Assembly: GCF_001458295.1 (NCBI RefSeq)
Contig: NZ_CYUD01000002.1
Location: 310,001-374,000, forward strand
DNA: 64,000 nt
Direction of reading: 5' to 3'
Source of the DNA: Ruegeria denitrificans
Lineage (GTDB): Bacteria; Pseudomonadota; Alphaproteobacteria; Rhodobacterales; Rhodobacteraceae
Under the pieces are notes generated by a model. That model searched no databases. It was not told where the DNA came from and worked only from the letters and a program-made list of their open reading frames with translations. The position numbers and the translations under genes were made by a program. Shown piece by piece: positions 18,064 through 44,060 of the stretch (position 1 is the first letter of the stretch; each line of letters opens with the position of its first letter).

Positions 18064-19059
18064 TCACACCTCGACCAGAGGCGCCACGCGCTCTAGTGCC
18101 TGCAACATTACCTCGGGGCCTGCGCCCTCATGCACCGCACCCTCGGACAAGGCCCGCCGCCATGCCCGCGCGCCAGGGCGTCCAGCGAACAAGCCCAGCA
18201 TATGACGGGAGATTTGGTGCAACCGTCCCCCCTCGGCAAGATGAGCCTCGATATATGGAACCATTTTGTGAACGACCTCGATAGGATCAGCCGTTTGTCC
18301 GGTGCCGTAAATCAACGGGTCAGCTTCGGCCAGAATGTCGGCTGGCTGATGATAGGCCGCACGCCCAATCATGACACCGTCCAACCCGGCCTCAAGATGG
18401 GTGCGCGCCTGATCCAGAGAGGTAATGCCGCCGTTGATCGAGATATGCAGATCGGGAAATGCCGCCTTCATTCGGTGAACCAGATCATAGTCCAAAGGCG
18501 GGATATCACGGTTTTCCTTGGGGCTAAGCCCCTGTAACCAGGCCTTACGTGCATGGATCGTCACCCGCTCACAACCCACTGCACGGATTTGATCCAGAAA
18601 CGTGGGTAAAACCTCTTCGGGGTTTTGCTCATCCACCCCGATGCGGCATTTCACGGTTACTTCAACATCGACCGCCTCACGCATTGCGGACACACAGTCT
18701 GCAACCCGGCCCGGGTCTTTCATCAGCACCGCCCCGAACGTGCCGGACTGCACCCTATCCGAGGGGCAGCCGCAGTTCAGGTTGATCTCATCATAGCCCG
18801 CCTCGGCCCCAAACTGCGCTGCCTGCGCCAGTTCCTGCGGGTCGGACCCACCCAATTGTAACGCAACAGGGTGTTCTTCGGGGTTGAAAGCCAGCAGATG
18901 CATCGCCCGACCCCGCACCAACGCCGGGGCGGTCACCATTTCGGTATACAGCAACGTCTGCCCGCTGAGCAGCCGATGCAGATAACGACAATGCCGATCT
19001 GTCCAATCCATCATGGGTGCCACGCTTAAACGCGCTGCTTTTTGTGCGTTATTTTTCAA
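18064..19059 (-). CDS. dusA: tRNA-dihydrouridine synthase A, 5' end rebuilt by island
   Basis: 331 aa FMN enzyme that reduces U20/U20a in tRNA. Marks: LSVAPMMDWTDRHCR at the N-terminus, INLNCGCPSDRVQSG with the catalytic Cys, VTVKCRIGVDE, ITIHARKAW-type loop (seen as VTIHARKAWLQGLSP) and the FMN-phosphate loop SINGGITS. No ATG lies near the true N-terminus. The best start is TTG at 19059, preceded by GGAG with a 7-nt spacer, all inside island DNA. The original host start is stranded at 43947-44060. The first residues (LKNNAQ) are thus island-coded and the match KAARLSVAPMMD is shared with the stranded piece. Confidence 0.9.
   Translation of the reverse strand: MKNNAQKAARLSVAPMMDWTDRHCRYLHRLLSGQTLLYTEMVTAPALVRGRAMHLLAFNPEEHPVALQLGGSDPQELAQAAQFGAEAGYDEINLNCGCPSDRVQSGTFGAVLMKDPGRVADCVSAMREAVDVEVTVKCRIGVDEQNPEEVLPTFLDQIRAVGCERVTIHARKAWLQGLSPKENRDIPPLDYDLVHRMKAAFPDLHISINGGITSLDQARTHLEAGLDGVMIGRAAYHQPADILAEADPLIYGTGQTADPIEVVHKMVPYIEAHLAEGGRLHQISRHMLGLFAGRPGARAWRRALSEGAVHEGAGPEVMLQALERVAPLVEV
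19005..19014. other. attL core in dusA
   Basis: AATCCATCAT on the plus strand, encoding the MMD of DusA on the minus strand, identical to 43958-43967. Beyond the core the flanks differ mainly at silent codon positions (GTGGCACCC here against GTCGCTCCG at the right end), as expected when an island brings its own dusA-like 5' end. Confidence 0.82.
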
Positions 19060-19087
19060 AGCGTTAACTCCATTCAGCTCCAAACTT

Positions 19088-19170
19088 CGCGTAGCACGAT
19101 TTCCCCTGATTTCACCGTATTTCCGGGGATTTTCGGAGGTTCTCGATTCGAGCGTGCTACGGTGTAGCAC
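19088..19170. repeat. Candidate integrase arm-type sites, left end
   Basis: CGCGTAGCAC at 19088-19097 is the reverse complement of GTGCTACGCG at 43893-43902 near the right end. A further perfect inverted pair GTGCTAC (19154-19160)/GTAGCAC (19164-19170) lies upstream of the integrase. Repeated heptamers 70-160 bp from the core are where tyrosine integrases usually have arm sites; the role is inferred. Confidence 0.5.
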
Positions 19171-19336
19171 ATCCAAAGCCTACAAACAGCGGCCCAAATG
19201 CAGCTGGTTCCTGGCCCGGGCACCACCGGTTCCATCTTCCCTTCTTCCCTCGGAATTTGGCTATCAAACCCCGGAATCTTTTTTCGTGCGGACGAACCGA
19301 ATTCCCTGTCATCTAAATCAAGATGGGACGAATTCC

Positions 19337-20599
19337 ATGACCACTATCAACAAAAGCACAACGGATGTGCTCGCAGCGATTACTGCCCAGAACCTCTTCC
19401 ACCGCTCCCCTTCTCAAGCAACCGCTGTGACTGCTGCCGGGGTTTCAGAAAGCACCATGCCGATCTCGACGACCGAGCAGAAAGAAAAGAAACCTCGCAA
19501 GGAGATTCCTGGGAAAAAATTCGAGGAACAGAACATCACTCGGTTTGAAGGCAAGAATGGAAAGTTCTCCTACCGGGTACAAATCCGAAAGCGTGTCGAT
19601 GGCAAACAGCACAGCCTCACGAAAACCTTCAAGCACCTGCCAAACGCAAAAAAATGGCGAAACAACCAACTCCGCGACATCGAGCTAAACGGGTTTCCAA
19701 TTCAAATCGTGACGGAAACTACAATCTCAGATGTCATCGACGATCGATTGAAGCGCGGAAAAACCCTTGGCCGATCTGCCCTTCAAGTGCTGACGTTCAT
19801 CAAGGCCGACGAGTTCGGAAAGACCAAGGTATCAACGCTGACCCAGCAACAGCTATACGACTATGCAGATCTATTGTCGGCTGGTGAAAGAATGCCGCAG
19901 ACTGTCGCGGGATACATGACTCACCTGGCGAGGACACTCTCCTGGGCCAAGGACCGAGGAGCTTTGATCCCCATCGAAGTGGTCAGCCTGGCCATGCGAA
20001 CTCTTTGGGAAGATGAGGTTCTGGCTCGATCCGAAGAGCGCGATCGCCGACCGGAACTCTGTGAGCTGAACAAAATCCTGACTGCTATCTCGGAAAATCC
20101 TCGGCAGAAGATACCTGCAGACATCCTGGCGGTCTTTGCAATCTATTCGGCGCGTCGTCTGAGCGAAATCTGCAGACTGAGGTGGGATGATCTGCGCGTG
20201 AATAGTGGCACGATCCTCGTGCGCGACATGAAACATCCCAGGCAAAAAAAGGGAAACAACGTTTGGTGCACTCTTCCGAGTGAAGCGTTGGAGATTATCC
20301 TGGCAATGCCCAGGACGTCTGAGTTCATCTTCCCTTACAATCCGCGCTCGGTTGGGACAGCATACCGCCGCCACCGGGACAAGGTCGGAGTCGTCGATCT
20401 GCGCTTCCATGACTTTCGGCACGAAGCCATCAGTCGGCAATTCGAGATGGGAAAGTCTGCTTCATTCGTCAGAAAAATCTCAGGTCACAAGAATGGTGGA
20501 TGTCTGTACCGCTACGAACACGTTGAAGAAGAAGGCGACAAATTCGCCAACTGGGACTGGCATCAACTGATCCTGGAGAGATGCAAGTCACTTCACTGA
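19337..20599 (+). CDS. int: Tyrosine-recombinase integrase of the dusA island
   Basis: 420 aa from MTTINKSTT at 19337; the open frame upstream runs through att DNA and is not likely used. The N-terminal half contains an arm-binding-like segment (ENGKFSYR-type: GKNGKFSYRVQIRKRVDGK) and a core-binding domain. Catalytic residues are in order: Arg in SARRLSEICRLRW, Lys in DMKHPRQKKG, HDFRHEA, His in SGHKN, and the nucleophile Tyr in the CLYRYEHV stretch. It sits next to attL and reads inward, as expected for an integrase that acts on the dusA site. Confidence 0.9.
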   Translation: MTTINKSTTDVLAAITAQNLFHRSPSQATAVTAAGVSESTMPISTTEQKEKKPRKEIPGKKFEEQNITRFEGKNGKFSYRVQIRKRVDGKQHSLTKTFKHLPNAKKWRNNQLRDIELNGFPIQIVTETTISDVIDDRLKRGKTLGRSALQVLTFIKADEFGKTKVSTLTQQQLYDYADLLSAGERMPQTVAGYMTHLARTLSWAKDRGALIPIEVVSLAMRTLWEDEVLARSEERDRRPELCELNKILTAISENPRQKIPADILAVFAIYSARRLSEICRLRWDDLRVNSGTILVRDMKHPRQKKGNNVWCTLPSEALEIILAMPRTSEFIFPYNPRSVGTAYRRHRDKVGVVDLRFHDFRHEAISRQFEMGKSASFVRKISGHKNGGCLYRYEHVEEEGDKFANWDWHQLILERCKSLH

Positions 20600-20708
20600 T
20601 AACCCCGATGGCCGGGTTCCATGCATCGGCCATCAAACTCCTATCAAACCAGTTTTCCGCCTTTTGAAGCAGAAACGCATTTCCTCTCCACAAGCAAAGG
20701 AGACCAAG

Positions 20709-20993
20709 ATGAAAACCATCGACATGCTGCTCGCCCATTTCGGCGGAAATCCGATTATCCCGCTGGAACACGTAGCGCAGTATTTGAACTACAAGCCGGA
20801 TACGCTGAAGCAAAAAATCGACGGCGGCGACATCCGCTTGCCATACACTGGAGTAGAGAACAACAGCCAGAAGGCTCAGAAATTCATACAGCTCACGGAT
20901 CTCGCTCGACTGATTGACGTTCAGTTCACAGCTGCGCAGGAGAAATTCGCTTCTATCTGGGAAGACGCCGCGTTCGACGCAAGCGCCCGTTGA
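20709..20993 (+). CDS. PrtN-like (pyocin activator family) protein
   Basis: 94 aa. Start ATG at 20709 follows AAAGGAGACCAAG. The pattern IDMLLAHFGGNPIIPLEHVAQYLNY, then DTLKQKIDGGDIRLPYTGVEN and QKFIQLTDLARLIDVQ matches the small PrtN family, named for the activator of pyocin genes in Pseudomonas. It is probably a small DNA-binding regulator with a winged-helix-like fold. A position directly after the integrase suggests a role in controlling excision or island gene expression; I recall PrtN-like genes beside dusA integrases elsewhere, but have not checked. Confidence 0.7.
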   Translation: MKTIDMLLAHFGGNPIIPLEHVAQYLNYKPDTLKQKIDGGDIRLPYTGVENNSQKAQKFIQLTDLARLIDVQFTAAQEKFASIWEDAAFDASAR

Positions 20994-21190: not shown

Positions 21191-21247
21191 ATGCGCCGTC
21201 CCAATTTCAGCTTGCTGAGAAAGGGGCGGTGTCCAATCACCGCAAGC

Positions 21248-21677: not shown

Positions 21678-24600
21678 TCAACGTAGCTCGACTGCCAGGG
21701 CTTCGGCTTGACGAAGAACGGTCTTCACAGCCTCAGATGCAAGATCAGGTGGGTATCCATGCCGCTGAAGAATTTTCTTCACTGCAATGCGCATCCTCGC
21801 TCGCACATTATCCCGGCGCCACCAATCCGTACCTGAATTCTTTCGTACCGTATTCACCAGTTCCGCGGCTATTACACGCAACTTATCATTGTCCATGATC
21901 TCAACCGCGCTGTCATTTTGCGACAGGGCATCATAAAATGCGCGTTCTTCCGCAGACAAACCGTCGTCAGGTTGATCCCGAAGGTCCTTCGCAATTTCGA
22001 TCAGTTCCTGAAGGATCTGAAGGGCGTCGACACTTCTATTGTGATATTTAGAAATCGCTTGCTCCAGACGAGAGGAAAACTCCTCTTTCTGGACGATATT
22101 CGTTCTGGTCTTCGCAGAGATCTCTCCGTTGAGAAGCTTCTTGAGAGCTTCCACCGCCAGGTTCTTGTACTTCATATTTTGGATTTCGATCATGAAGGCA
22201 TCAGACAGAACGCTGATATCAGGACGATCGAAGCCGCAAGCTTCAAGGATATCAACAACCTCTGTTGACGCAACTGCACGATTCACAAGCTGCTGAATTG
22301 CAAAATCCGGATTCCGGGATGACCGCCCAACCGGCGCCGCCCCAACTTTTTCCAGGCCTGATCTGACGGCAGAGAAAAAGGCTACTTCTTCCGTGTGGTC
22401 GGTGGCTTGAGGACTGCCTGAGGCGAGTTTGAAGGCCTTTACCAGGGCCGCAGTGGCATCGTTGAAGCGCTTCACTGCCCCGCCTTCACCCAGTCTGTCG
22501 CTTTGCAAAATGTGATCGAGAGCACTCGGTAGTACGCGAAGCCGTTCCGCAGGCGTCCCTCCCAAAGCTTGAGAGTAGTCAAACCCATGGAACTGGGTGC
22601 GCGCCACGTCAAGCGCATCCAGGAAAGCCGCGACGGCCTCGGCTTCACTGATCCCTGTCTGTTGCTGGTCGGACTGACTGTAGTGGGCAAGCGCACTTTT
22701 CAATTCCGCAGCGATACCAATGTAATCAACGACAAGCCCTGCAGGTTTGTCCTGAAATACACGGTTCACCCGGGCGATAGCTTGCATGAGGCCATGCCCT
22801 CGCATCGGCTTGTCGACATAAAGTGTATGCATGCAGGGTGCATCAAATCCGGTCAACCACATGTCACGGACGATGACGAGCTTCAATGGATCCGTGGGAT
22901 CCTTTGTTCGGTTCCTGATCGCTTCCTGGCGGGACTTCGAGCGAATATGGGGCCGAAATTCTGCGGGATCTGTTGCGCTGCCAGTCATGATGACTTTGAC
23001 CTGACCAGTTTCGTCAGTGTCCCCATGCCATTCAGGCCTCAGTTCCACGATCCTATTGTACACTTCCACGCATATGCGTCGGCTCATGCACACAATCATC
23101 GCCTTGCCGTCCATCGCCTCAAGCCGCGCGTCGAAATGCTCCAGGATGTCTTCGACCACCGTATCCAGGCGCTTGTTGGCTCCAACCAGTGCTTCGACAC
23201 GCGACCATTTTCGAGCGATCGCCGCCGCCTCGGTATCTTCCATTATTTCGGTGGCTTCGTCGAATTTCTCGTCGAGTTCCCTGGAAAACTCCTCGTCCAG
23301 CTCGACCTTGGCAACTCGTGCTTCATAGTAGATTGGAACCGTCGCTCCATCCTCTACGGCTTGGGCGATGTCATACACATCAATGTATTCGCCAAATACA
23401 CTCCTTGTGTTAGCTCCGACCAACTCAACAGGAGTTCCTGTGAAGGCGATGTAAACAGCATTGGGGAGCGCCTGACGAAGTTGGTATGCAAGGCCATGAC
23501 GGACTTCCCCAGTCTCCTTCTTAATCTTCGCCTCGAACCCATATTGAGTGCGGTGCGCCTCGTCGACCATGACGATCACGTTGGATCGGTCCGTCAGTTC
23601 TGGGAAAACTTCACCTGTTTCCGGACGGAATTTCTGTATCGTGGAAAAGACAACACCACCCACTTCACGATTAAGTAGGTCTTTCAGGTCACTGATGCTG
23701 TCGGCCTGGACTGGATCTTCGCCAAACAGATCCTTGCACCGACCGAAGGTCGCAAAAAGCTGATTATCCAGATCATTACGGTCAGTCAGAACCACCAGGG
23801 TCGGATTTTCAAGGCCAGGGTGCCGCATAACGCGCCCGGCAAGGAAGGTCATCAGCAGAGACTTACCAGACCCTTGTGTGTGCCAGATGACACCGCCTTT
23901 GCCATCCCCCCCCTGAGCCATCAGAATCGTCTGGATCGCCTTCCGTACTGCATGGAATTGATGGTAGCCGGCAATCTTCTTGACCGGTCCTCTACCCTCA
24001 TCCTCGAACACTACAAACCAGCGCATCAGGTCCAGAAGCGTCTGTGGATCCAAAAGCCCTTGGGTCAGAGTTTGGAGGGCAAGAGACGTATTTTCTTCGA
24101 CTATAGTTTCGCCGTCGATGGTACGCCATCGCATGAAACGATCCAGTCCGGCCGACAACGAGCCATAGCGGGCATTCAACCCATCTGAAATCACGGTAAG
24201 AAGCGATGTGCGAAACAGATCAGGGATATCTTCTTTGTATGTGTCAATCTGCCGATAGGCGGCGTCAATTCCGGCCCCTTCCGTCCCCTTCAGCTCAACA
24301 ACGACCAGTGGCAGGCCGTTCAGGAATAGTACCACATCTGGTATCCGAGGGTTCTTTCCGACTACATCCACCTGATTGACGGCACGCCAGTCATTCTTCT
24401 GGTTTTCCCAATCAACAATCTGAACACGCGCATTGCGTTCTTCACCATCGGCGAAATAGGTCAGAGCCACACCATTGACGAGAAGGTCATGCAGACGCCG
24501 GTTTTCCTGGACAACGTCAGTGGCGTACACGACATCATGTACCCGCGTCGCGGCCTCCTGCACCGCAGTGACCGGCAGCTCAGGGTTCAGTCGTTTCAAC

Positions 24601-24761
24601 GCATCGAAGAACACCGGCAGAAGAAAGGTCTCTCGGAAACTCGTTCGCATCGGATTGCGCATTTCAGGCGAAATCTCAGAACCGTGGTGGACGGAGTACC
24701 CCAGCGCCCCAAGGTCTTCCATGAAGACAGCTTCAAGGTCCGCTTCGCTCGCCCAGGCCAT
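21678..24761 (-). CDS. hsdR: Type I restriction enzyme, R subunit
   Basis: 1027 aa motor and nuclease subunit of a type I restriction-modification complex. The N-terminal nuclease has [19 protein letters not shown] (PD...ExK pattern). The helicase core has Walker [14 protein letters not shown], motif [12 protein letters not shown], motif [14 protein letters not shown], and a second RecA lobe with [21 protein letters not shown] and the ARVNRVF arginine finger region. Its ATG overlaps the stop of the DUF4268 gene by one base (TGATG). Last gene of the five-gene operon. Confidence 0.95.
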
Positions 24762-25897
24762 CAGGAAACACCACCGTTTGCTTTCAGGGCCTGGTTGACC
24801 TCAGCCAGTGGCCCTCTCAACGCTCTCTCCCACTTCTGGATGTGCTCTACATGCCAGGCGATATGTTTAGGCCATTCATCTCGATTGAACCCGTCACAGG
24901 GGATCTCATACTGAAGTCTGCAAGCCTTTTTGTCATCCAGCCTCAGCCATTCGATTTTGTTCCCAAAGTCGGCCTCGATTTGTTCCCGCTTCTGAATTAG
25001 TCGGTCAAACAACCATTTATTTTCTTCAGCGGAAGCGCGAGCAAAGGAAAATTCCACACGAAGCAGCGCCTTGCCGAAAATCATGGCATAATGGCAGGAG
25101 CGCACGCCTGACCCAGCACTCAACCAGTGATCCTTGCTGGGACTGATATTCTGATAAAGCGTGTCCCCCGCTTCCTTCAAAGCCTCCAGGGCCATTTCCC
25201 AATAGTCACGGCGCAATTTGTGTCGGTTCTTCTGTTCGCCCTGTGCACCGCGCGCCTCGGTCTCTTTCTCGGCCATTCCAATCATGAAATCCGCTGCTTC
25301 AGGCGTGGGGATCACCGGCTGGATATCAACAAAGAGTTCTTCTCCAAACACATACGGCACGACCTTGAAGCACCGCGCATCAATGCGATGCTCTCGCAGC
25401 CAGAGGACGGTCGATGTGACTTCCTTCCTGAAGTTGGCAGCGATGAAGATCAGACGCTGGTCATTCCCCGGATTCAGGATGACCTCTCCAAGCTCTTCAA
25501 CATCCAGGAATTCGCAGATCTGCGCCGCAGCATTTCCGCCCCCGCAATACCGGTCCAGGTACTGCTGGTAGATGTCGATGATCTGCGTCTTGGTGAGCCC
25601 AGACACATAGGCGGTGTATTTCAGCGCCTGCCAGGTTACATCCCGGCCGCTGTCGTCGAGCTTGTTTTCGATCACCACCAACTGCCCGTCCTTGTCGAGC
25701 GCCAGCAGGTCGAGCCGTTCGCGCGTGTCGGCGAAACCGTCGAATTCCTTCTGGATGATCAACAGCTCCTCGCCCAGGGCATCCGGCTGCCCGGCCAGCC
25801 ATTCCTGAAGGTGCTCCCGCTCTCGCAGGTTGAGGTCGGAAAATCTCTTTTCTTCAAGCTTTTGAATACGGTTTTGGGATAAATCGACTTGAAACAT
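24761..25897 (-). CDS. PD-(D/E)XK nuclease-like, DUF4268 protein
   Basis: 378 aa. The N-terminal half has a nuclease-like core, [22 protein letters not shown] (D...ENK) followed by [12 protein letters not shown], similar to NucS/DUF91-type endonucleases. The C-terminal half (from about [15 protein letters not shown] on) matches the DUF4268 domain, with a long acidic and aromatic tail. It starts and stops by one-base overlaps with both neighbours (TAATG and TGATG), so it is part of the R-M operon. It may be an accessory restriction nuclease or an independent defence effector. Confidence 0.75.
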
Positions 25898-26640
25898 TAT
25901 TCCCCTCGAAAATCGGAAAAATCCAAAATAGCCACACCAGCCAATTCTTCCGTTTGAATATACTGAGACATGAAATCGCGGTTTCTGATGTTTTCAAGCA
26001 CAACTCGCCGCGAAACCGGCATGGAAGCGTTCATCTCATCCTGAGTGATACCAAGCGCATTCTTCGCATCACACTTTCCGGACATGGTAACCAAGCGATG
26101 CCAGGGCTTCATATGCTTCTTCAAGTCACTAAGCTTGTTGGTGCCCGCGGCTTTCACCTTTTTAGCACAAGCGATAGAACACCCCCAATAGCTTCGACCG
26201 CGATAAGGGTGTTCCCCGCCTCCATGCAGAAGCTTGGAATTCACGCCATGATCATGATTGAAGAAAACATACAGCGGGATGTTCGATCCTGCTCTCTTGA
26301 TCAATTTCCCTGCTTGAGGTGATGACGGATCCAGCCCGCCGTAGTCCTTCGATTTGTCCTTGTGATATAGTCGTTTAGCCTGCACTCGTAATCCCAACTC
26401 ACAAAACCTGGTACGGATGATCCACTCCCAGTCTGCACCGTTGATCCCCTCCTCAGTCTTGTTAAACATGGTCACATTGAGCCCATGCTTCGCGTGATCT
26501 CGGGCCATGCGGAGAAGAAGCATCTCAGTGAGTGTTTCCTCCTGGAGTGCCAAGCCGTTATTGAAAGCGTGGCCCTGTTCATTCCAGACCCAAGCTGCAC
26601 GCTGGCGAAGGTAGTCTCGCAAGGAAATCGCGGAAGGCAT
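25897..26640 (-). CDS. DUF6615-type protein, nuclease-like
   Basis: 247 aa. The pattern LQEETLTEMLLLRMARDH, EEGINGADWEWIIRT and LRVQAKRLY resembles DUF6615. The E..GADWEW...QAK residues could form a degenerate PD-(D/E)XK site (acidic residues then QxK). The middle shows PLYVFFNHDHGV and a Cys/His-containing GCSIACAKK. Between hsdS and the DUF4268 gene, with one-base overlaps on both sides. Not a standard type I subunit; I infer an accessory defence function. Confidence 0.65.
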   Translation of the reverse strand: MPSAISLRDYLRQRAAWVWNEQGHAFNNGLALQEETLTEMLLLRMARDHAKHGLNVTMFNKTEEGINGADWEWIIRTRFCELGLRVQAKRLYHKDKSKDYGGLDPSSPQAGKLIKRAGSNIPLYVFFNHDHGVNSKLLHGGGEHPYRGRSYWGCSIACAKKVKAAGTNKLSDLKKHMKPWHRLVTMSGKCDAKNALGITQDEMNASMPVSRRVVLENIRNRDFMSQYIQTEELAGVAILDFSDFRGE

Positions 26641-29425: not shown

Positions 29426-29572
29426 GATCTGTCCTTGAAAATACTTCCTGGTCTGCCTTGGAGGCGGAACAACCTTGCGATGAGTTTTGGCCGATTTTTG
29501 TCGTTGGTTCAATGATCTGGATCGAAAAGAAAAAAGTTGGAACGTCCTGCCTGCAACTCGTTGAGTAGCATT

Positions 29573-34635: not shown

Positions 34636-35945
34636 TACAAAACCCGCCTTTGCACCCACTCCATCCAATGGCCAGGTGGATCATGCCTTCTGGCATCCTG
34701 GTGGCCCACTGGCAGCAAGATATCGTCAAGATCGTAGTTGCTGAGATAAAGCTCAGGAGTTGCTCGAGTTGGTGTCGGAAAAATATGCACCCGAAAACTA
34801 TGCGAGCCTTCGACAACCGTCTTCGATCCGATCTTCATCATGAGCAGACAGGTATCACTTCGAGTGCCTTGGTGGCCAAAGCTCATGTAGGATGGATCAC
34901 CCGTACGAGCATAAAGTTCCTTTGCATGGGGCACGGCTTTGCTGCCGAGTGCGACCCACGCTTCCTCAATACGGCCCTTGTCATAGACTCCCATCCAGAA
35001 CCGTTTTCGATTTGCCCATTGGTGCCCCTGTTCCGATCCTCCTTCTGCCCTGGTCACAATATCGAAAATCGCTTCCATGCTCTTGCGAGCCAACCATTTC
35101 AGCAGGATCCGTCGATAAGGCTGCCCTACCATGGACCAAAAAGCTGGGCGATCAGTCCGAGGGTCGCCGAACCTATTCACGAGCCTTTCCAGGTTGAATT
35201 CGCGGAGCTTCTGAGGGCAGTCGGTGGAAACCCAGGGGGATAGAATTTTTTCGACAGTCTCAGCAGCCCAAGGGTCAAAAAGTTTCGGACGGTTTGGCGG
35301 TGTTACCCATCCCAGAAGCTTGTCTACGGCCATCTCAGTCTGTGGCATGGGGGTTTGCCTGAGAAATGCGAGATGGGTTTCTCTCATCAAGCCTTCTTCG
35401 TGAGGGGCAGGTAAACCTTCAGACTTGAGCCACTGGTAAGGTGTCGTGGCTTCGACCATTCGTGCAGCCATCTTCTCTGCGCCATCTTCAATATCAAGAA
35501 AGGCCGGGTGCTTTGCGAATATTGTCTTCCAACGCGTCGGCAGTACGGAGGCCTTTTCAAGCAAAAGGTTTGAAAGAACACGTGTCTTGGCCGCTCGTTT
35601 TGACCAACTCACAAAGTATCCCCGGCACATGGCATCGATCAGGGTCGGGTTCGTTGCAACCTTCATTTCCTGATCCAGGAAAAGGCGCAATTCCTGTGGG
35701 AGTTCGATCTTTTCTCGAAGATGCTCATAAACCGCGATACCAACATCGCCGGACGTCACACCTTGCCAAATTCCCGCCTTATATGCCTCCTCTACTTTAC
35801 GAAGAATGATCGGGACATCCTCTGGCGCGCGTTTCTCGAGCCCAGGAAAGGCTTCTGCGATCCGTTCTGCGGCCTTATCCAAGGCTCCACCTTTGACGCG
35901 AACACTGAAGTCAGGTTTGAGGACAAGTCGATCGGCCAGGCTCAT
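34635..35945 (-). CDS. zorC: Zorya type I component ZorC (EH-signature)
   Basis: 436 aa, matching the EH-signature family that pairs with ZorABD. Recognisable blocks are the central LFLDQEMKVATNPTLIDAMCRGYFVSW and the C-terminal MSFGHQGTRSDTCLLMMKIGSKTVVEGSHSF, with the FPTPTRATPELYLSNYDL tail. It is a soluble, charged protein; published work gives ZorC a DNA-binding accessory role. The start overlaps the zorB stop (ATGA), and the stop overlaps zorD. Confidence 0.9.
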   Translation of the reverse strand: MSLADRLVLKPDFSVRVKGGALDKAAERIAEAFPGLEKRAPEDVPIILRKVEEAYKAGIWQGVTSGDVGIAVYEHLREKIELPQELRLFLDQEMKVATNPTLIDAMCRGYFVSWSKRAAKTRVLSNLLLEKASVLPTRWKTIFAKHPAFLDIEDGAEKMAARMVEATTPYQWLKSEGLPAPHEEGLMRETHLAFLRQTPMPQTEMAVDKLLGWVTPPNRPKLFDPWAAETVEKILSPWVSTDCPQKLREFNLERLVNRFGDPRTDRPAFWSMVGQPYRRILLKWLARKSMEAIFDIVTRAEGGSEQGHQWANRKRFWMGVYDKGRIEEAWVALGSKAVPHAKELYARTGDPSYMSFGHQGTRSDTCLLMMKIGSKTVVEGSHSFRVHIFPTPTRATPELYLSNYDLDDILLPVGHQDARRHDPPGHWMEWVQRRVL

Positions 35946-37018
35946 TCGAGTTCTCCTCCCTGGAGAAGTTTTTGAATGCGCGCCAGATCATCCAGACCAG
36001 ACGGTATCGAAGCTTCATCCACCGGCGAGAACATTATGAAACGAATGTCGATACGCCGGTTTGCATCCCGGCCACCAGGTAAGGCTTCATCAGCAATTGG
36101 TCGGCCTTCGCCGTAGCCTGACACGGAAAGCACAGGCTGTGCACGCAGGTTCATAAACCCAAGCAACTGCGGGTTGGCCGCAATCATTTCGCCATAGATT
36201 GCCGCACCACGCCGGGCACTCAGATCCATGTTGTGATTATCACTTCCAACACTGTCCGCGTGACCTTCAATCTGCAACGCATCGATTACAGCAATATCTT
36301 CGTTGCAAGTACTGCCCAGCGTCGATGGTTCTCCCAGAGAGAAACAAGCTATGACTTCCTGGAGGATACCAGCAATGAGCCGCATTTTGGCCCGACCTTG
36401 GCGCGATGGTGTCGTTGAATTTGACGCAAAAAGCCCATCACCTCTGAATTGGAGTGCATCCTGGTTGCGCGAAATGCTGACATCGATCGAGGGATCAACC
36501 GCAACGATCCTTTCTCGCAAAACGTGAAGGATCCTGGCCCTCTGCAAAGAGACAACGGTATTGTATCTTTCGATCAAGTTCTCGTCTGAACTGGCAGCTA
36601 AGAGCGCATGCAAGCGTTGCAGTTCGTTTCGGAGCAGTGAAATACGTGCCACGGCGGTGTCCCCATCCGCCAGTTCCAACTCTGCATGAATTGCGTCGAT
36701 ATCTTCTTCCAGCGCACGCACTCTGGCCTCAAGCTGCGCTTTTTCAGCCTGCAACTTAGAGATGATGCTTGGTTCTCCTGAACGATAGCTTTCCAACTCC
36801 TCAAGCAGCTGTCTGACCTGAAGATCCCGCTGCTCGATGATGCTTTCTGCTTCATCGAGCATATGTTTCGGGACTGTTTCCCCTGGCGTAATCTGGGTGG
36901 CGAAAAAGGCGAGCAAAATCATCACGATGAACAAAAAGCTCACTGTCATGTCCGTCATCGAAACGAAGACGGATTCTTCCTCCTCTTCCGACAACCTCTG
37001 GCGAAACGCATGCCTCAT
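35942..37018 (-). CDS. zorB: Zorya stator subunit ZorB (MotB/OmpA-like)
   Basis: 358 aa. One membrane helix (residues about 25-42, SFLFIVMILLAFFATQ) is preceded by Asp23 in MTDMTVSF, the position of the proton-carrying Asp in MotB. A coiled-coil segment (about 55-140) leads to an OmpA-like peptidoglycan-binding domain with ALQIEGHADSVGSDNHNMDLSARRGAAI. ZorB assembles with ZorA into a proton-driven rotary complex in the inner membrane. Overlaps zorA and zorC by 4 bases each. Confidence 0.92.
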   Translation of the reverse strand: MRHAFRQRLSEEEEESVFVSMTDMTVSFLFIVMILLAFFATQITPGETVPKHMLDEAESIIEQRDLQVRQLLEELESYRSGEPSIISKLQAEKAQLEARVRALEEDIDAIHAELELADGDTAVARISLLRNELQRLHALLAASSDENLIERYNTVVSLQRARILHVLRERIVAVDPSIDVSISRNQDALQFRGDGLFASNSTTPSRQGRAKMRLIAGILQEVIACFSLGEPSTLGSTCNEDIAVIDALQIEGHADSVGSDNHNMDLSARRGAAIYGEMIAANPQLLGFMNLRAQPVLSVSGYGEGRPIADEALPGGRDANRRIDIRFIMFSPVDEASIPSGLDDLARIQKLLQGGELE

Positions 37019-38475
37019 TCTGCAATCGCCTCAACCGACGACTTGGGCTGGCTTTCCGGCTCGAACGCCTTCGCGTTTTCAATGACCGCCTGGAGAGTAG
37101 ACAACGCATCGGCGAACCTCTCCTGTACGCCGTTTCCGTGATCTTCGAGCTTGTCGATCGTCTTACCCACTTCGACCTGGTAGGTCTGAAAGGCTTTCTC
37201 AAGCTGCCCATCATAGGCGGCTGCTCGGCTCTCGAAGGCTTCAATCAGGCCTTTGATAGACAGCATCGCCTCCAAAACGACCTGTTTCTCCTCCGAGATC
37301 GCAGTCTTGGCGGCGTGAACCATTTCGGTTGCGCCTTCGGCTACCCGCAAGTTTGCCGCATTTCCTTCTTTGACTGTTTCCATGACCGTTGGGGCCAAGT
37401 CGCCAACCATTCCACTTGCGCTTGTCAGCTTTTCGGACACTTCCTCAAGACGCGAGAGTGCGGAAATCAGGGACTTCGTGGAAGAAGAAAGAGCCTCATC
37501 AAATTGTTTACCCGCCAGGTTCAGGTCGTCTCCGATTGAAGACAAGGCATTTGCAGCAGCTTCCATCCTCTCTGAAACAGAGTCCAACGAACCGCCAATC
37601 CCCGAGGTAATGTCTTTTCCCAGTTGATCGACCATGGTGCCTACATTCTGCACCGACTGTTCCACCACCCTGTTCAATGGCTCGCTCAGCTTCGCAACCA
37701 AATGTGTATTCAGTTCAGCCTGTTGTACTGTTTGGTCCTCGATTGCCCTCAGCTGCTTCCCTGCGAGATCCTCCAAGCTGATGAACGCCATATTTTTCTC
37801 AAGTGAAGCGGCGAAGGAATCGGCCCCCTTTTCAACTCTGGTCGACCAGTACCGCAGACAAAAATTGATTATGATGGAACAGGCCAGCCCACTCAAAGAC
37901 ATAGTGAATTTGGCTGAAGCTTGCCCCAGAAGTTCACGCAACGCACTTACTGTTGCGGCATCGTTGCCATTCAATAAACCCTGGGTCTGTTGAAGCACTG
38001 CCACCAAACCAAGGAAGGTTAACAACAGACCAAGAGAAACGAAAACTCCCGGAACCCATCGCAAAGATTTCAAAGAAAATCCAAGATCATCCACGTTCAA
38101 GAATGCTGATGGGCGAATTGAGTTGTGAATCCGCGCCTCGTCGCCCCTGCCGACAACTGTAAGCGTTTCACAATATTCCGAAAATCCAGTCGACAATGTA
38201 CGGTCGGCTGCGCCCTTCCGGCGTTTGAGTGCCGCTCTCAGGGCTTCTGCATCCAGGCCATGGCCCGAACTGTCGGAAGCGCGTTCTGCGTCTCTCAGCG
38301 CGGCAGCAAGCGCTTGCCTGCGCGACCACGAAATGAGGGAGATCCAAATGACGAATAGCATCATAGCTGCAAAAAGACCCGCGCTGATGATGCCGGGCCA
38401 GTGCTCGTCAACGATCATGTTGGCCGCCGACAGGATAAAGTCCCGAACCCAGACGCCTACGCTTTCAAAATCCAT
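37015..38475 (-). CDS. zorA: Zorya motor subunit ZorA (MotA/TolQ-like)
   Basis: 486 aa from MDFESVGVWV at 38475, preceded by GGAGACGAA; the frame to 38526 is not needed. Helices at about residues 30-50 (ISAGLFAAMMLFVIWISLI), 125-150 (VPGVFVSLGLLLTFLGLVAV) and 180-200 (SGLACSIIINFCLRYW) match the MotA/ExbB/TolQ core. The last 250 residues form a long cytoplasmic helical tail with repeated heptad-like patterns; this tail is the hallmark of ZorA and is thought to carry the infection signal to the effectors. First gene of zorABCD. Confidence 0.93.
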   Translation of the reverse strand: MDFESVGVWVRDFILSAANMIVDEHWPGIISAGLFAAMMLFVIWISLISWSRRQALAAALRDAERASDSSGHGLDAEALRAALKRRKGAADRTLSTGFSEYCETLTVVGRGDEARIHNSIRPSAFLNVDDLGFSLKSLRWVPGVFVSLGLLLTFLGLVAVLQQTQGLLNGNDAATVSALRELLGQASAKFTMSLSGLACSIIINFCLRYWSTRVEKGADSFAASLEKNMAFISLEDLAGKQLRAIEDQTVQQAELNTHLVAKLSEPLNRVVEQSVQNVGTMVDQLGKDITSGIGGSLDSVSERMEAAANALSSIGDDLNLAGKQFDEALSSSTKSLISALSRLEEVSEKLTSASGMVGDLAPTVMETVKEGNAANLRVAEGATEMVHAAKTAISEEKQVVLEAMLSIKGLIEAFESRAAAYDGQLEKAFQTYQVEVGKTIDKLEDHGNGVQERFADALSTLQAVIENAKAFEPESQPKSSVEAIAE

Positions 38476-38719
38476 TTCGTCTCCAAATCTGAGGGTATCG
38501 TCTTTCTGGCAACCCTCTTGTTGCACACAGTTTTTCCACTTTCATTGATGCAACTCAACCATCGAGTGCGCTAATTGTTCACCAGAATCCCCTAAAGCCA
38601 CAAAGGCATGCTGCCCAACTGTTTGAACCAAAGCACTGTCAATCCATCTGAGGCCCGAAGAAGTTTTTCGTTTGACGCCAATGCACCCATCTTCCCGACG
38701 AGACGTCAGGGAGATCGAA

Positions 38720-39417: not shown

Positions 39418-39533
39418 TAGCGGACAAAATGACAAACACCGCCGAATATTCGGTTCCGGAGTATCCGCAGGTTTTTGTCATTTTCCGCTTTGGTTTCAGC
39501 GATAACGGCCAATTTGTCATTTAGCGGACAAAA
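39418..39533. promoter_or_regulatory. Repeat-rich leader of the second recombinase module
   Basis: Three related elements: TAGCGGACAAAATGACAAA (39418-39436), its approximate inverse TTTTTGTCATTTTCCGCTT (39472-39490), and TTTGTCATTTAGCGGAC (39513-39529) continuing into AAAA. A perfect 12-bp palindrome CCGAATATTCGG lies at 39442-39453. It ends just before the ribosome site (AGAGG) of the recombinase gene. Could be an operator, a recombinase-binding region or an element end. I see no gene in the whole 285-bp gap. Confidence 0.55.
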
Positions 39534-39545
39534 AAAGAGGCCCAA

Positions 39546-41309
39546 ATGAGCTTTCATAAACCACTCACCGCAATGACCCTGCAAGACGTCCAAGACCGAG
39601 AGGTGGCGGCAGGCAATAACGACTACGCCAATGCTGTTGGTCGCTACCCGCACCTGACTGATGGTGCAGTTCTCAATCAAATCCCCGCAGATCTGACGTT
39701 GATAAAACAGCGACTGCCACTCCATGGGTTCGATCCCTCTCTCAGCAAATCAGAGAAGGCCTACAAAGCAACGAGGCGAAAGATCATTGCAGCGGTCAAA
39801 AACGCGACAGGCGAAGCTGAAGCAGCCAGAGAACGCCGTGCCCGGGTCGACGAATGGGCGGAACTTCTGACCGCCCTGGAACCTCACGCCGTCACAGAAG
39901 GCGAACGGAAACACCGTGCCAAACAGATTCTCATCCCTGTCAGGAAGCTGGCTGACGTAGCGCGGGCAAGCGATATCAAACCCAGCCAGGTGTGTCAGGA
40001 CTGGTTGGACACCGTTTCGCCAACCCTGGAAACCAACGAGTGGAAAACTCTTCAGCGCGCATTCAAGACGCTGAACAAATTTCGCCACGACGACAATGTA
40101 TGCCGCTATCTTCCCGTTGCTCCCTTTCCTTCCCCTGAACCTCGCCGCCAGGAAAACCTTCATCTCATTCCTCCTCATATCGCTGATGAAATCGATGATT
40201 GGGTGCGCAACGCCACGCTGACCGAGTTCGATCCTGTTGAGCAGGAACATGTGAATACCGCTTCGGTCTCGAGCGTAAATTTCAAGCTGGCAGCGATGCG
40301 GAAATTCGTCAGCACACTTTTTCGCAGTGGTCGGCTACAGCCACATACAAAATTGGGTCTACAGGACCTCATGACGCCTGAGTATGCGACCGATGTCGTT
40401 CGGTTTTGGAGCCAACATGAAGATCAAAAGGGGCATATCTCGGCAAGAACCGCGTATGACTACCTCAAATCCAACTATGTCGTCATGGCCAGAAATGACG
40501 TCGATCCTTCCCTCATGAAAAGCCATCTCAGAGCCAACCGGTTCCTGAAAAATGGGAAGAAGGCCAGCAACGACATGTCACCCACTTCACGCAAATTCTG
40601 TGAGCATCTATTGGCATCACCACAGCAGACCATGAAATTCCTGTCGATGCATGTTCATTTGCGCAATCAGGTCAATGAACTGCTCGACCGGCTTACTGGC
40701 GTTGAATTCAACCCGAAATCGCAGGAGATTACGCGGATCCGACAGATCGGAACGGTCGCTGCCATCTGCGCCCTCGAAACACGCGGGGCTCCCATAAGAA
40801 TCGAAAGTGCTTTGGAGTTGATATTTCGCGGCCCGGGCAGAACCTTCCATCTCCCGTCACGAAAAACCAAGCATGCCACAATCGATCTCGGGCCCGAGCA
40901 CACCAAGAACGATGTGGAGATCTGGGCCCCGATACAGCCCAACCATTTGAATGGCCTCGAAGTCATCCTCTGGTATCTCGAAAAAATTCGCCCCCTCTTT
41001 CCCAACCACGAAGAAAGCGTTCACCTGTTTCCTGGTTTCAAATACGGAGAAGCACTGGAATACAGAACCTTCCTGGGCTGGTTCAAGCGCCAAACCCGAA
41101 GCGCCGGATTGCCAATGACACCGCATAAATTCAGGCATGGCCTCGCCTCGCTTCTGTTGCAACACAACCCAGGCAGATGGGACCTCCTCGAGAGATTGCT
41201 CGACGACACGCCCGCAACCGTTCGCAAGAATTATGCCTGGGTGAATGAACGCGCCAAACGCACGGAAGTTCAAAAATTCATTCTGGACCTGTCGAGCCTC
41301 AGCCGATGA
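39546..41309 (+). CDS. Large tyrosine recombinase, first of a module
   Basis: 587 aa, long for an integrase. The catalytic domain occupies the last 200 residues: Arg in CALETRGAPIRIESALEL, the box HKFRHGLASLLL (HxxRH), and the nucleophile Tyr in TPATVRKNYAWV. The N-terminal 350 residues contain Asn/Lys-rich helical repeats with no family I can name. It has the AGAGG site before ATG 39546 and overlaps the next gene by ATGA. It is not close to the dusA integrase in length or sequence, so it is a second mobility function inside the island. Confidence 0.82.
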   Translation: MSFHKPLTAMTLQDVQDREVAAGNNDYANAVGRYPHLTDGAVLNQIPADLTLIKQRLPLHGFDPSLSKSEKAYKATRRKIIAAVKNATGEAEAARERRARVDEWAELLTALEPHAVTEGERKHRAKQILIPVRKLADVARASDIKPSQVCQDWLDTVSPTLETNEWKTLQRAFKTLNKFRHDDNVCRYLPVAPFPSPEPRRQENLHLIPPHIADEIDDWVRNATLTEFDPVEQEHVNTASVSSVNFKLAAMRKFVSTLFRSGRLQPHTKLGLQDLMTPEYATDVVRFWSQHEDQKGHISARTAYDYLKSNYVVMARNDVDPSLMKSHLRANRFLKNGKKASNDMSPTSRKFCEHLLASPQQTMKFLSMHVHLRNQVNELLDRLTGVEFNPKSQEITRIRQIGTVAAICALETRGAPIRIESALELIFRGPGRTFHLPSRKTKHATIDLGPEHTKNDVEIWAPIQPNHLNGLEVILWYLEKIRPLFPNHEESVHLFPGFKYGEALEYRTFLGWFKRQTRSAGLPMTPHKFRHGLASLLLQHNPGRWDLLERLLDDTPATVRKNYAWVNERAKRTEVQKFILDLSSLSR

Positions 41310-42688
41310 AAACCCCAGACTACCGCTCAAAAAACGAAATTCTTAGGCTTCAACGCTGGGATCTCCTGATTGGAGATCCCAATATGGCCGCGGCCACGGT
41401 TCAGGAATTGAGGTTGGTCGATGATCTTCTGGCTTTTCTCGAAACACGCGGAATTTCGTCGATGGAAGCCCTGTCTGCACAGGAATTCCTGAAGTTTGAT
41501 GCCAGGAATGGATCGGAGAGCCGGCTTCGTCGTCTCAAACATGCGATCATGGCGATTTTCCCGAGCCACCCTTCGGTTTTGGCCCTGGAGGAAGCCATCC
41601 GATCGCGCGAAGCAAAACGCAAGAAGAAGTCGAAACCCAAGTCGCGCCGGCTGTCCAAATCTGTGGAGTTCAACCAATTGCCGCCGGCCTGGCGAAAAGC
41701 ATTCCAAGACATGGATGCTGGTTTCGATCAAAACGGAGAATTACCCCCTGCAGAAGGAATGATGGATACCCACAAAATGAAAATGCGTCAGTTCCTTTTT
41801 TCGGCCCGCGCAGCTGGACTACCGGATGCTCTGTCCACCGAGGCAGTGCGCGCATATGCACGCGATCTTCGAAATCGAGGAGTGGCCCCAGGAACCCTCC
41901 GGTCTTCGTTCGCAGCGGTGCAAAAGTTCGCTCGATACGTGGCGGCTGGTACAGAAACACTCGATCTGCTGGCCGATCTCGTTCGAATTTACGAAGCTCA
42001 AGCCCGCAAGACGAAAGGCAAGAAATTCAACCACCTGCAGAAAACCGGATACTCGCCGGTGGCGTTGATCGAGCAAGCTCGTGACATTCTGCAGGGTGCT
42101 GAAGAACACGACTGCCCAAGAAGCCGCCATGCGCAGCGCAACCGCGCGGCAGCATTGGCGTTGTTTTCCGTCATGCCGGTCCGCCTTGCTGACACGCGAT
42201 TTGTCTTTGGCGAAAACCTGTTCTGGACCGGCACCCAATACACCATTGAAACCGAACTCTCCAAGAGCGGCTATGCGTGGACAACAGACATTGATCCACG
42301 GCTCAATGTCCTGATCGACGCTCTCATCCTGCGTGGTGCCAATCCAGCTTGGCTCGATCACATGCGCCAGACCTGCCTCGCAGAGAAACGCTCCCTGTTT
42401 ATCAACAACGACGGAACTCCTGTCGCCTATGGATATGTTTCGGATTGCTGGCGGCGAGAAGTGGGAACCGGAGAGCACATCGCTCGTACGGTTTTGCACA
42501 CATTCATGGGAATAGAAATGGGACAGGCAGGAACAGACATGGCGATGGCATCCTGCGGACAACGTAACCATGCGACAGCTACGGCATACCAGGGTGAAGC
42601 TCTGGCGATGGCCCAACGCATGAAAGGACAGGCCGAGCTCCGCGAGATAGCCAACCAGGGAGAACTCGAGATGTTTGAATTCAAATAG
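41306..42688 (+). CDS. Second tyrosine-recombinase-like protein, altered catalytic set
   Basis: 460 aa. C-terminal fold still shows an Arg box (ALFSVMPVRLADTRF), a HIAR then TVLHTFMGIEMG stretch at the HxxR position, and a possible nucleophile in the NHATATAYQGEAL segment, but the usual LGH third motif is replaced by CGQ. An N-terminal basic stretch (KRKKKSKPKSRRL about residue 105) may bind DNA. ATGA overlap with the recombinase gene before it shows translational coupling. It may be an accessory or inactive partner, as in elements that carry two or three recombinases in series. Confidence 0.65.
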   Translation: MKTPDYRSKNEILRLQRWDLLIGDPNMAAATVQELRLVDDLLAFLETRGISSMEALSAQEFLKFDARNGSESRLRRLKHAIMAIFPSHPSVLALEEAIRSREAKRKKKSKPKSRRLSKSVEFNQLPPAWRKAFQDMDAGFDQNGELPPAEGMMDTHKMKMRQFLFSARAAGLPDALSTEAVRAYARDLRNRGVAPGTLRSSFAAVQKFARYVAAGTETLDLLADLVRIYEAQARKTKGKKFNHLQKTGYSPVALIEQARDILQGAEEHDCPRSRHAQRNRAAALALFSVMPVRLADTRFVFGENLFWTGTQYTIETELSKSGYAWTTDIDPRLNVLIDALILRGANPAWLDHMRQTCLAEKRSLFINNDGTPVAYGYVSDCWRREVGTGEHIARTVLHTFMGIEMGQAGTDMAMASCGQRNHATATAYQGEALAMAQRMKGQAELREIANQGELEMFEFK

Positions 42689-42866
42689 GATGAACTGGCA
42701 GCGGCAGGTGTTTCTTCGGGATTTCGGCATGAACCCCGAAGAAACAACCAGCCCAGCCATCAACCGAGAGAAAAGCAGCCTCTCACACGACAACCGCGCA
42801 TTCGAAAGGAAATTCAGTCGCCTTGAAGCCACGGCATCATGCTTTGGCGCTGCATAGGAGAACAAA

Positions 42867-43244
42867 ATGTTCGACTTTCACCAGGATGCACTGAAAGACC
42901 TTCGGGATTTCATGTCGTCTCATAACGAAGCACTGCAAAATGCTTCCGTTCTGTTAGGTGGCCAGCCCGCCCTTCGCCGGACGCAGGCTCTTCTCGGCGA
43001 CATCATGAGCGCACGCAGTCTGACACGAAGACTGAGATACAGGATTGCTGCACTCCATGGTCTTCTGTCTCTGAGCAATGTGCATGACATCGAGACACTC
43101 GAAGCGGCATACTTCGCCGAAATCGACCCGGCATCGCCCATCATGGAGGAGCTCTGTCTACTCACCGAAGGATTGAAAGAAGCAATCTGTCAGCACCAGG
43201 ACCCGGATCTGATCGCATTGATCGAAACAGATCTTGTCGCATAA
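42867..43244 (+). CDS. Small helical protein of the recombinase module
   Basis: 125 aa, start ATG after AGGAGAACAAA. No Cys-based motif, signal or membrane helix. It is predicted all-helical with regularly placed Leu and Ile (ALKDLRDFMSSHNEALQN and LTRRLRYRIAALHGLLSLSN). I do not recognise a domain. Its place and size recall the small third proteins of multi-recombinase elements such as TnpC of Tn554 (also about 125 aa), but I can show no sequence match. 178 bp separates it from the recombinase-like gene; that gap holds nothing obvious. Confidence 0.55.
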   Translation: MFDFHQDALKDLRDFMSSHNEALQNASVLLGGQPALRRTQALLGDIMSARSLTRRLRYRIAALHGLLSLSNVHDIETLEAAYFAEIDPASPIMEELCLLTEGLKEAICQHQDPDLIALIETDLVA

Positions 43245-43347
43245 CGGCGCAGCGTCACCCCCTGTCAATCTGGGGTTGGCGGCTTGAGAGCCAGCGCAAT
43301 GCCGGCTCACCACTGACAGATGACCGCTCAAACCGAAGGAGACCACA

Positions 43348-43764
43348 TTGGACATCGAAATCGAACGCGACGTACACAAGTTGACACTCGACGCAATCGT
43401 TCTGGGGCGATTGTTGGCCGAAGAATGGCTCGCAGGCAGCCTGACCCCCAAAGGATCCATTAGATCAACTATCCTGGATAGCCTTCAATCCCTCCGAGAG
43501 CGCCAGGGGCTTCAGCAGATCGACCAGGATCTAATCGACGTCATGGGTGAACAGATCCGCAGAACCCTGAATGAAATTCGTGAGGGCAAAGGTGATACTG
43601 CAATAACGCAGGACGTGGATCTGGTCTGGGAACAAGATCAGAAAGTCGTCGAGTATGTGAATCTCGCATATCGCTGGAAGCAGTTCAAAAAAGCCAAGGT
43701 AGCGCTCGACGATAAGCTGGCAGCAATCCGGGATACGGACACCCTTCTTGCGACCGTCGTTTGA
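43348..43764 (+). CDS. Hypothetical protein, TTG start
   Basis: 138 aa. The TTG at 43348 has AAGGAG 7 nt upstream, so I accept it; no other start lies near. Mostly helical and charged (LLAEEWLAGSLTPKGS; WEQDQKVVEYVNLAYRWKQF), no recognised domain. It is the last gene before the right att site. It lies 103 bp after the previous small ORF on the same strand and may be the fourth gene of the recombinase module. Confidence 0.55.
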   Translation: MDIEIERDVHKLTLDAIVLGRLLAEEWLAGSLTPKGSIRSTILDSLQSLRERQGLQQIDQDLIDVMGEQIRRTLNEIREGKGDTAITQDVDLVWEQDQKVVEYVNLAYRWKQFKKAKVALDDKLAAIRDTDTLLATVV

Positions 43765-43881
43765 AACCTCAATGGGATGGCCGGGCGCTTCGTGAGGTCC
43801 CGGCACATTCATTTGAAGACCAAACAGAAATATTGCATCCTCAGGAAGGTAGAGCACAGCTTCACTGTCAGAAGGGGACGA

Positions 43882-43902
43882 TTGCTACATATGTGCTACG
43901 CG
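43882..43902. repeat. Candidate integrase arm-type sites, right end
   Basis: TTGCTAC (43882-43888, with the first T replacing G) and GTGCTACGCG (43893-43902). The second is the inverted copy of the site at 19088-19097. Both lie 55-75 bp inside the right att core. Confidence 0.5.
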
Positions 43903-43946
43903 CCGAAATCACCCCTTAAAAACACCTATAGAACAATACCTTACCT

Positions 43947-44060
43947 TCAGTCGCACAAATCCATCATCGGAGCGACGGACAGCCGGGCCGCGCGCCAAAG
44001 TTTGGCTTTTTCCGGCTTTGTGGTTTGAGCTGAATCCGACATGTTTTCCGTGTCCGTCAT
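43947..44060 (-). pseudogene. Stranded 5' end of host dusA
   Basis: Minus-strand ORF of 37 codons: Met at 44060 or 44042, then KPEKAKLWRAARLSVAPMMD, then LCD and a stop created at the junction. The last 12 dusA residues (with one change to KAARLSVAPMMD in the rebuilt gene at 19059) match the DusA start exactly, and then the reading frame enters island DNA. This shows where the native start lay before the island came in, and that the rest of dusA is now about 25 kb away. Confidence 0.88.
43958..43967. other. attR core
   Basis: AATCCATCAT, identical to 19005-19014. It lies within the MMD codons of the stranded dusA piece. The flank to its right is host dusA 5' DNA; to its left is island. Confidence 0.82.

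Follow-up and report, generated by a model that had tools for sequence, protein, structure and literature searches.

The window analysed here, a 64,000-nucleotide stretch of Ruegeria denitrificans DNA, carries a dusA gene that is split by a 25-kb island at about 19005-43967 (Table 1). The exact stretch common to the two dusA copies is ATGATGGATT (plus strand AATCCATCAT, 19005-19014 and 43958-43967), and all eight codons of the preceding residues, AARLSVAP, differ between the live and stranded copies, every change being synonymous. A 17-nt pattern, TCCATCATSGGWGCSAC, searched with at most one mismatch, has two matches in the 4.62-Mb genome, which are the two island borders; its backwards-read control has none. 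A look for repeats acting as integrase arm sites gave short pairs only at the left end and none at the right, and the idea was dropped. These observations bear out what the earlier note had claimed from the letters alone: that the island splits dusA and strands the native start some 25 kb away, that it supplies its own ribosome site and TTG start, and that it silently recodes the shared residues. Of the ATG codons in the stranded end, the second is probably the native start: in genome G050, the native 5′ end is stranded too and contains MSDVTKTQKPSQAEIWRAARLSVAPMMD, aligned with MSDSAQTTKPEKAKLWRAARLSVAPMMD; counted from this ATG, the native leader has 28 codons up to the D of MMD.

Table 1. 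Features of the island, its borders and the two parts of dusA in the window
Feature	Position	Strand	Remarks
Live dusA	18064..19059	-	331 codons; TTG start from the island; Pfam Dus PF01207, E 9.4e-82; reading frame and start seen in the sequence itself
attL	19005..19023		10 bp identical to attR, then imperfect continuation
Putative TTG start codon	19057..19059	-	Inside the island; from the reading frame
GGAG, ribosome-binding-like site	19068..19071	-	8 nt 5′ of the TTG; read directly
TGTGCTACACC, possible extended -10 of an island-borne dusA promoter	19161..19171	-	Similar in integrase-less relatives
Tyrosine integrase	19337..20599	+	PF00589, E 1.2e-18
PrtN-like protein, candidate RdfN-type excision factor	20664..20993	+	PF11112, E 3.9e-15; role by analogy with passages of PMC8409611
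Type I restriction-modification cluster	21678..29512	-	PADLOC REase_I, Specificity_I, MTase_I, PDC-S11
Zorya type I system	31420..38526	-	Order ZorD-ZorC-ZorB-ZorA; PADLOC best matches ZorD1, ZorC1, ZorB1, ZorA1
Right-end module	39546..43764	+	Recombinase-like protein of 587 aa, then 460, 125 and 138 aa; also in G125
attR	43958..43976		Partner of attL, same 10-bp core
Stranded native dusA 5′ end	43947..44060	-	37 codons then stop; reads MTDTENMSDSAQTTKPEKAKLWRAARLSVAPMMDLCD*; second ATG at 44042
Native region just 5′ of dusA, now ahead of the stranded end	44062..44138	-	Local match score 104 to the G009 dusA upstream region
TetR-family regulator, native upstream neighbour	44186..44788	-	PF00440, E 8.9e-17

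The integrase start lies 277 bp from the TTG of dusA. Within the type I cluster, the PDC-S11 protein is interposed and there is a 247-aa protein that has no PADLOC match; the Zorya genes stand adjacent with four type I best matches in order. At the right end, the 587-aa recombinase-like protein matches PF00589 at E 6.9e-05, under the curated cut-off, and the three proteins that follow it have no Pfam match.

The open dusA frame spans 19176-18064 on the minus strand, and translation from the TTG begins LKNNAQKAARLSVAPMMDWTD. Upstream of this TTG the in-frame candidates are TTG and GTG codons only, with no ATG. The TTG is our candidate for the start in use, and the island region ahead of it is the candidate dusA promoter; DusA would be made from an island-supplied start. 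A TGnTA element, judged by eye, is conserved in an alignment, and in the window TGTGCTACACC may be an extended -10 motif. A sigma-70 consensus scan returned no site in either the island region or the native region. Predicted mRNA folding at the start was alike for TTG-type and other leaders (mean MFE -9.7 versus -9.2, p 0.49) across 52 of the 54 genomes; G028 and G031 were dropped as no start was picked, and the starts of G000, G035 and G040 were set by hand.

The island-free comparison that the earlier note had called for is provided by G009, which is nearest to the window in the dusA tree. Its dusA has an ATG leader and a native upstream region matching that of the window, with TetR 187 bp before the TTG-equivalent position, and no integrase match was found at E 1e-20. 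The same TTG leader also stands on other islands. G125, from another genus, shares most of the window island's cargo with 93-96% DNA identity (one 228-bp piece at 90%) and has an integrase that is 71% identical. Leisingera aquimarina DSM 24565 has a full-length integrase and a leader with 44/45 identity. In G035, a native GTG leader is stranded beside TetR and the live dusA has an island-type leader. In G007, the stranded leader is accompanied by about 350 bp of the island left end, where an integrase search confirmed no integrase remnant. Elsewhere the TTG leader adjoins broken or fragmentary integrases: a Pelagimonas MAG retains only parts of integrase residues 1-80 beside it, and G404 has an integrase fragment with a stop inside. 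We take G007, the Pelagimonas MAG and G404 as intermediates that favour persistence of the leader. The leader pattern gave no stretches in viral contigs.

Across the genus, 7/54 genomes carry a TTG 5′ end almost identical to that of the island (37-45 of 45 nt) and gave no integrase match at E 1e-20. In G010, G038, G025, G014, G047, G392 and G404, the frame is closed by a stop 4-7 codons 5′ of the TTG, which is the only ATG, GTG or TTG ahead of the RLSVAP residues. GGAG recurs in G040, G035, G125, G010, G013, G038, G039, G252, G392 and the stranded leader of G007; G025 and G014 have GAGG instead, and G047, G380 and G404 have neither before the TTG. G013 and G039 have further upstream start candidates, and since CTG stands in place of the TTG in G035, which shares with G040 an ATG six codons upstream, TTG is not the sole option everywhere.

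We read the integrase-less TTG genomes as scars, in which the donated 5′ end has apparently outlasted the island; R. atlantica HKCCD6218 is one scar-like example. The earlier note had named island-free relatives starting as at 19059, with no leader like the stranded one, as the case that would speak against its own island-split reading. Taken literally, that case is realised in part, since seven relatives in which no island integrase was found do start there. The seven nevertheless look like later scars rather than the ancestral state of this lineage: their leaders are near-identical to that of the island, there is no grouping among their dusA bodies, and the 13 rows tested with this leader form no clade. 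The seven are scattered over the dusA tree, and a single clade for TTG-leader dusA was rejected (AU p 3e-54) in a test that omitted G077, G153 and G298, present in an earlier dusA tree. The former islands in G013, G014, G038, G039, G047, G010 and G025 are read from one end, because the stranded native end beside TetR was not found in the first five and in the last two no match to TetR was found at E 1e-60. G040 has no recognisable attR between TetR and dusA. Most of the genomes compared are drafts. TetR lies within 250 bp of dusA in 12/54 genus genomes, and the same number retain it within 1500 bp; loss of this neighbour is not peculiar to the scar-like genomes.

The TTG leader could instead be the ancestral dusA start in part of the genus, later captured by islands, with the integrase-less genomes never having carried one. 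Some native leaders are indeed short and begin with a codon other than ATG, and the island leader may first have come from one of these, since a same-position TTG (G016) or GTG (seven genomes) start is found with TetR adjacent and no panel integrase. Those eight leaders, however, are only 28-35/45 identical to that of the island, with no island-like upstream sequence above shuffles. The scatter of the seven near-identical leaders over the tree and the integrase fragments remaining at some loci also argue against it, and we consider this history unlikely. In its simplest form, a leader that is merely ancestral, it was dropped on leader identity, codon comparison and the clade test. In that comparison, the same-codon fraction in AARLSVAP is 0.70-0.95 within and between TTG-type sets, against 0.47 downstream; the controls give 0.29 against 0.45 and the GTG group 0.48 against 0.49 (G024 and G042 were excluded from the 'other' group for a differing leader motif).

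Scattered near-identical leaders would also be expected if the dusA 5′ region had spread between species by ordinary homologous recombination, islands being carried along as passengers, and the run CGTTTAAGCGTGGC is common to the island leader and some GTG-type native leaders. Yet the shared stretch stops near the att core, downstream of which codon agreement is no higher than in other pairs. Moreover, six of the seven integrase-less genomes have aligned island-like stretches of 55-210 nt, reaching 112-212 nt 5′ of the start, which fits an attL arm; in G047 such sequence was not above shuffles (32 versus 30). We judge this route as improbable as an ancestral leader. That dusA is inactivated in the window and its TTG frame open only by chance is hardly credible: the frame is intact and full-length in the window genome and the integrase-less relatives, and the TTG position is conserved.

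As a whole, the anatomy of the island, its att repeats, the stranded native end, the island-free relative and the same leader on other islands are best explained by a dusA-specific island that inserted through its own integrase and supplied a replacement dusA 5′ end (probability about 0.9). The tyrosine integrase would recombine at the 10-bp core within the dusA codons for PMMD, detaching the gene from its native promoter, its start and its opening codons. In their place the island would bring an upstream region of its own that probably holds a promoter, then the GGAG site and the TTG start, and finally some 15 codons in which the first beta strand is encoded anew by different synonymous codons. 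The earlier note supposed that this switch of control could alter tRNA dihydrouridine levels. Integration would also regenerate the att core, so that further elements could land in front. Less surely than the use of the island start and promoter, an island decaying by deletion would leave the donated end in place, because dusA would by then depend on it.

We think it likely, with less assurance than for the insertion itself, that dusA islands exchange regulatory sequences in a lasting way. At each visit the gene may receive a new promoter, start codon and N-terminus, and these may be kept after the island decays; several species of the Ruegeria group would now use a dusA start from a lost element, and the donated start would itself be the next landing site. 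A passing island may thus alter a core tRNA-modification gene for good, as the near-identical replacement beside broken or unfound integrases in related marine bacteria suggests. If the donated end is fixed when the island decays by deletion, mobile elements would rewrite the expression signals of a core gene permanently and repeatedly.

With its integrase beside the dusA 5′ end, imperfect repeats, split ends and PrtN homologue, the window island can be assigned by sequence to the dusA-specific genomic islands (Farrugia et al. 2015, PMC4482086). In the passages of that paper drawn on here, such islands likewise have an integrase adjoining dusA, imperfect att repeats in its 5′ end, the native 5′ end at the far border and an island 5′ sequence with a replacement beta strand; a prtN homologue is present in 60/94 islands, and one named island carries type I restriction-modification. 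Precise excision restoring the native gene was shown for other dusA islands, so an island of this kind is reversible in principle. The earlier note's suggestion that repair by a TTG-start leader is novel is weak, because repair of the dusA front end by an island is already published. What is added here is the near-identical TTG 5′ end without a found integrase in seven of the 54 genus genomes; those passages mention neither TTG starts nor island-less donated 5′ ends, and we recognised no prior report of retained donated 5′ ends in literature covered mainly at the level of titles and abstract openings.

Passages of the paper on IMEVchUSA3 of Vibrio cholerae (PMC8409611) describe tandem elements at dusA. 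There, the figure legend gives an ATG start codon, in contrast to the TTG of the window island, and dusA expression was assayed by lacZ fusion. As stated in the same paper, the ICE SXT enters the 5′ end of its host gene and provides a promoter and N-terminus, as in the window, although both the gene (prfC) and the element are different. SpyCI islands likewise enter their host gene, mutL, at its 5′ end, and are described as molecular switches with a mutator phenotype (PMC4129442); the window dusA, in contrast, stays in frame.

The earlier note held that an island of about 25 kb splits dusA in the window and gives it a TTG restart, and for the window genome (G000) both the observation and this reading of it hold. 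The exact sequence ATGATGGATT is common to the live gene and the stranded copy, all eight codons of the preceding AARLSVAP differ between the two with the residues unchanged, and a 17-base pattern spanning both copies has two matches in the 4.62-Mb genome (one mismatch at most), at the two dusA pieces. The core-to-core distance is 24,953 bp.

Positions of the dusA pieces and of island features in the window
Feature	Position	Strand or orientation	Description
Live dusA	19059 to 18064	minus	TTG start, then LKNNAQKAARLSVAPMMD
Tyrosine integrase	19337-20599	adjoins dusA, reads away from it	PF00589
PrtN-like protein	20664-20993	near dusA, reads away from it	PF11112
Right-end module	38672-43764		195-aa protein, recombinase-like 587-aa protein, 460-aa protein (no Pfam match), two small proteins
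Stranded dusA 5' end	43947-44060	minus	frame reads MTDTENMSDSAQTTKPEKAKLWRAARLSVAPMMDLCD, then stop

The cargo runs from a type I restriction-modification cluster and a Zorya type I system (4/4 parts) to the right-end module, whose proteins are 89-96% identical in the compared genome G125 and whose recombinase-like member has a Pfam score under the cut-off. All four Zorya parts lie at 31420-38526, beside the restriction-modification cluster with its PDC-S11 protein; together the two systems are a defence island carried at dusA. Past attR come the native neighbours: a regulator of the TetR family and two proteins carrying [2Fe-2S] and molybdopterin domains.

All 54 genus genomes have dusA. In G009, the closest to G000 in the dusA tree, TetR lies 187 bp ahead of the TTG-equivalent position, the leader begins with ATG, the sequence upstream of dusA matches window 44062-44138, and no integrase match is found at E 1e-20. 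Twelve of the 54 genomes (G009, G019, G026, G032, G051, G016, G022, G017, G049, G053, G011 and G034) have TetR no more than 1500 bp upstream of dusA, and none of the twelve has a panel integrase there. Native GTG and TTG starts occur at the same position in other TetR-adjacent genus members, and suggest where the island leader may originally have come from. G050 is a second case of a dusA split by an element: the native leader is left beside TetR, 19.7 kb from a live dusA with another leader. In G035, a native GTG leader is stranded beside TetR and the live dusA, about 75 kb away, has the island-type leader. This stranded leader (locus L119) reads SVALMMD against SVAPMMD, as expected from drift of a dead 5' end.

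When 45 nt from the start were compared without gaps with the island leader across the 54 genomes, live leaders identical at 37-45 positions were found in ten (G000, G035, G040, G010, G013, G014, G025, G038, G039 and G047), and the remaining live leaders reached at most 35/45. The island's own type of integrase (89-100% identical) is present in three, G000, G035 and G040, with an internal TAG in two of them; no match to the integrase turns up in the genomes of the remaining seven at E 1e-20, most of the assemblies being drafts. Six of these seven carry island-like upstream stretches of 55-210 nt, extending 112-212 nt before the start, above shuffled controls; the upstream sequence of G047 is not island-like above such controls. 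Further upstream lie apparently ordinary chromosomal genes, judged from translated frames without a family search. In G010 (L094) and G013 (L097) the scar-like dusA adjoins apparent transporter genes, not TetR.

TTG-type genomes, with leaders like the island's, are scattered in separate places of a tree of the dusA body (single gene, first 20 codons excluded, 57 rows). A single clade is rejected both for the seven integrase-less genomes (p-AU 3e-54) and for all 13 TTG-type rows (p-AU 4e-106), and an earlier 58-row quick tree agreed. Within AARLSVAP, integrase-less pairs have the same codon in a fraction of 0.70, pairs between sets in 0.83 and island pairs in 0.95, against 0.47 downstream for each pairing, in sets that include G125, G252 and G392; the corresponding values are 0.29 and 0.45 for other pairs, and 0.48 and 0.49 for the GTG group. 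Among pairs with downstream similarity of 0.65 or less, at least 85% of AARLSVAP codons are shared in 41/78 TTG-type pairs versus 3/852 others. Because the dusA bodies scatter and these codons are alike beyond the downstream ones, we read the seven leaders without integrase as probable scars of former islands, that is, donated 5' ends left after decay. A native stranded end beside TetR was not found in G013, G014, G038, G039 or G047, so the former island there is read from one end; lost TetR adjacency is common across the genus. In G007 the stranded TTG leader retains about 350 bp of the island left end and lies about 260 bp from the equivalent of window 47648 and beyond, with neither TetR nor the two neighbouring genes between. 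In front stands another dusA element that has an integrase of its own, and the search did not confirm an integrase remnant by the stranded leader.

The leader query matched ten of 394 genomes sampled across the family (E 1e-8), window genome included; four of these matches, in G091, G245, G272 and G276, are weaker. G125 shares most of the cargo (93-96% identical DNA) and has an integrase 71% identical; directly behind the right end of its island stands another TTG leader with a left end (L141:7451-7973), where no second integrase match was found, and we read this as a remnant of an earlier island. The integrase is frameshifted in G392. The leader matches at 43/45 in G252, where no integrase was found at E 1e-30, and at 36/45 in G404, which has an integrase fragment; G380 has a stranded leader with a different integrase 37 kb away. 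Scanned for the leader pattern, named genomes yielded 17 stretches (Ruegeria, Shimia, Leisingera, Tritonibacter, Pelagimonas, Phaeobacter, Roseobacter and unplaced records), which measure persistence rather than frequency because the pattern was drawn from sequences already seen; a viral collection gave none. The integrase was sought in ten of the 17, the other seven being genus genomes already searched. It is full-length, 97-99% identical and free of stops in three (Shimia marina, two Leisingera) and broken, fragmentary or contig-cut in five (Tritonibacter aquimaris, Roseobacter SK209-2-6, an uncultured Shimia, two Pelagimonas), several fragmentary cases reaching contig ends; in Roseobacter SK209-2-6 its place is the same as in G392. 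No such integrase was found in isolate AB1-7 or in Phaeobacter CECT 5382, where the contig runs out about 500 nt upstream. The part most worth pursuing is the probable survival of a donated dusA 5' end past the decay of its island.

The dusA starts of 52 of the 54 genomes, picked mechanically except for three placed by hand, comprise 32 ATG, 11 TTG, 8 GTG and 1 CTG. The TTG is kept in all aligned TTG-type loci except that of G035 (L031), which has CTG in its place. An ATG stands six codons upstream in G035 and G040, and may have taken over as the dusA start in G035. For seven loci the sequence makes the TTG the likely start: in G010, G038, G025, G014, G047, G392 and G404 the frame is closed by a stop 4 to 7 codons before it, and no other ATG, GTG or TTG comes ahead of the RLSVAP residues. 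G013 and G039 have further upstream start candidates. GGAG precedes the TTG exactly in most loci and GAGG does so in G025 and G014; neither was found in G047, G380 or G404. A promoter consensus scan found none in the island region or the native one, and expression of DusA is a prediction from the sequence.

The earlier note thought the repair of dusA by a TTG-start leader worth reporting. Passages of PMC4482086 and PMC8409611 hold no mention of a TTG start that we found; the repair itself is already established, since PMC4482086 (Farrugia et al. 2015) describes dusA-specific islands whose 5' sequence replaces the gene's own. Those islands supply a replacement beta strand, the displaced original 5' end stands at their far border, and putative promoters are described both before and after; a passage of PMC8409611 cites SXT in prfC as a parallel case. 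The mechanism of the window island is of this already-known kind.
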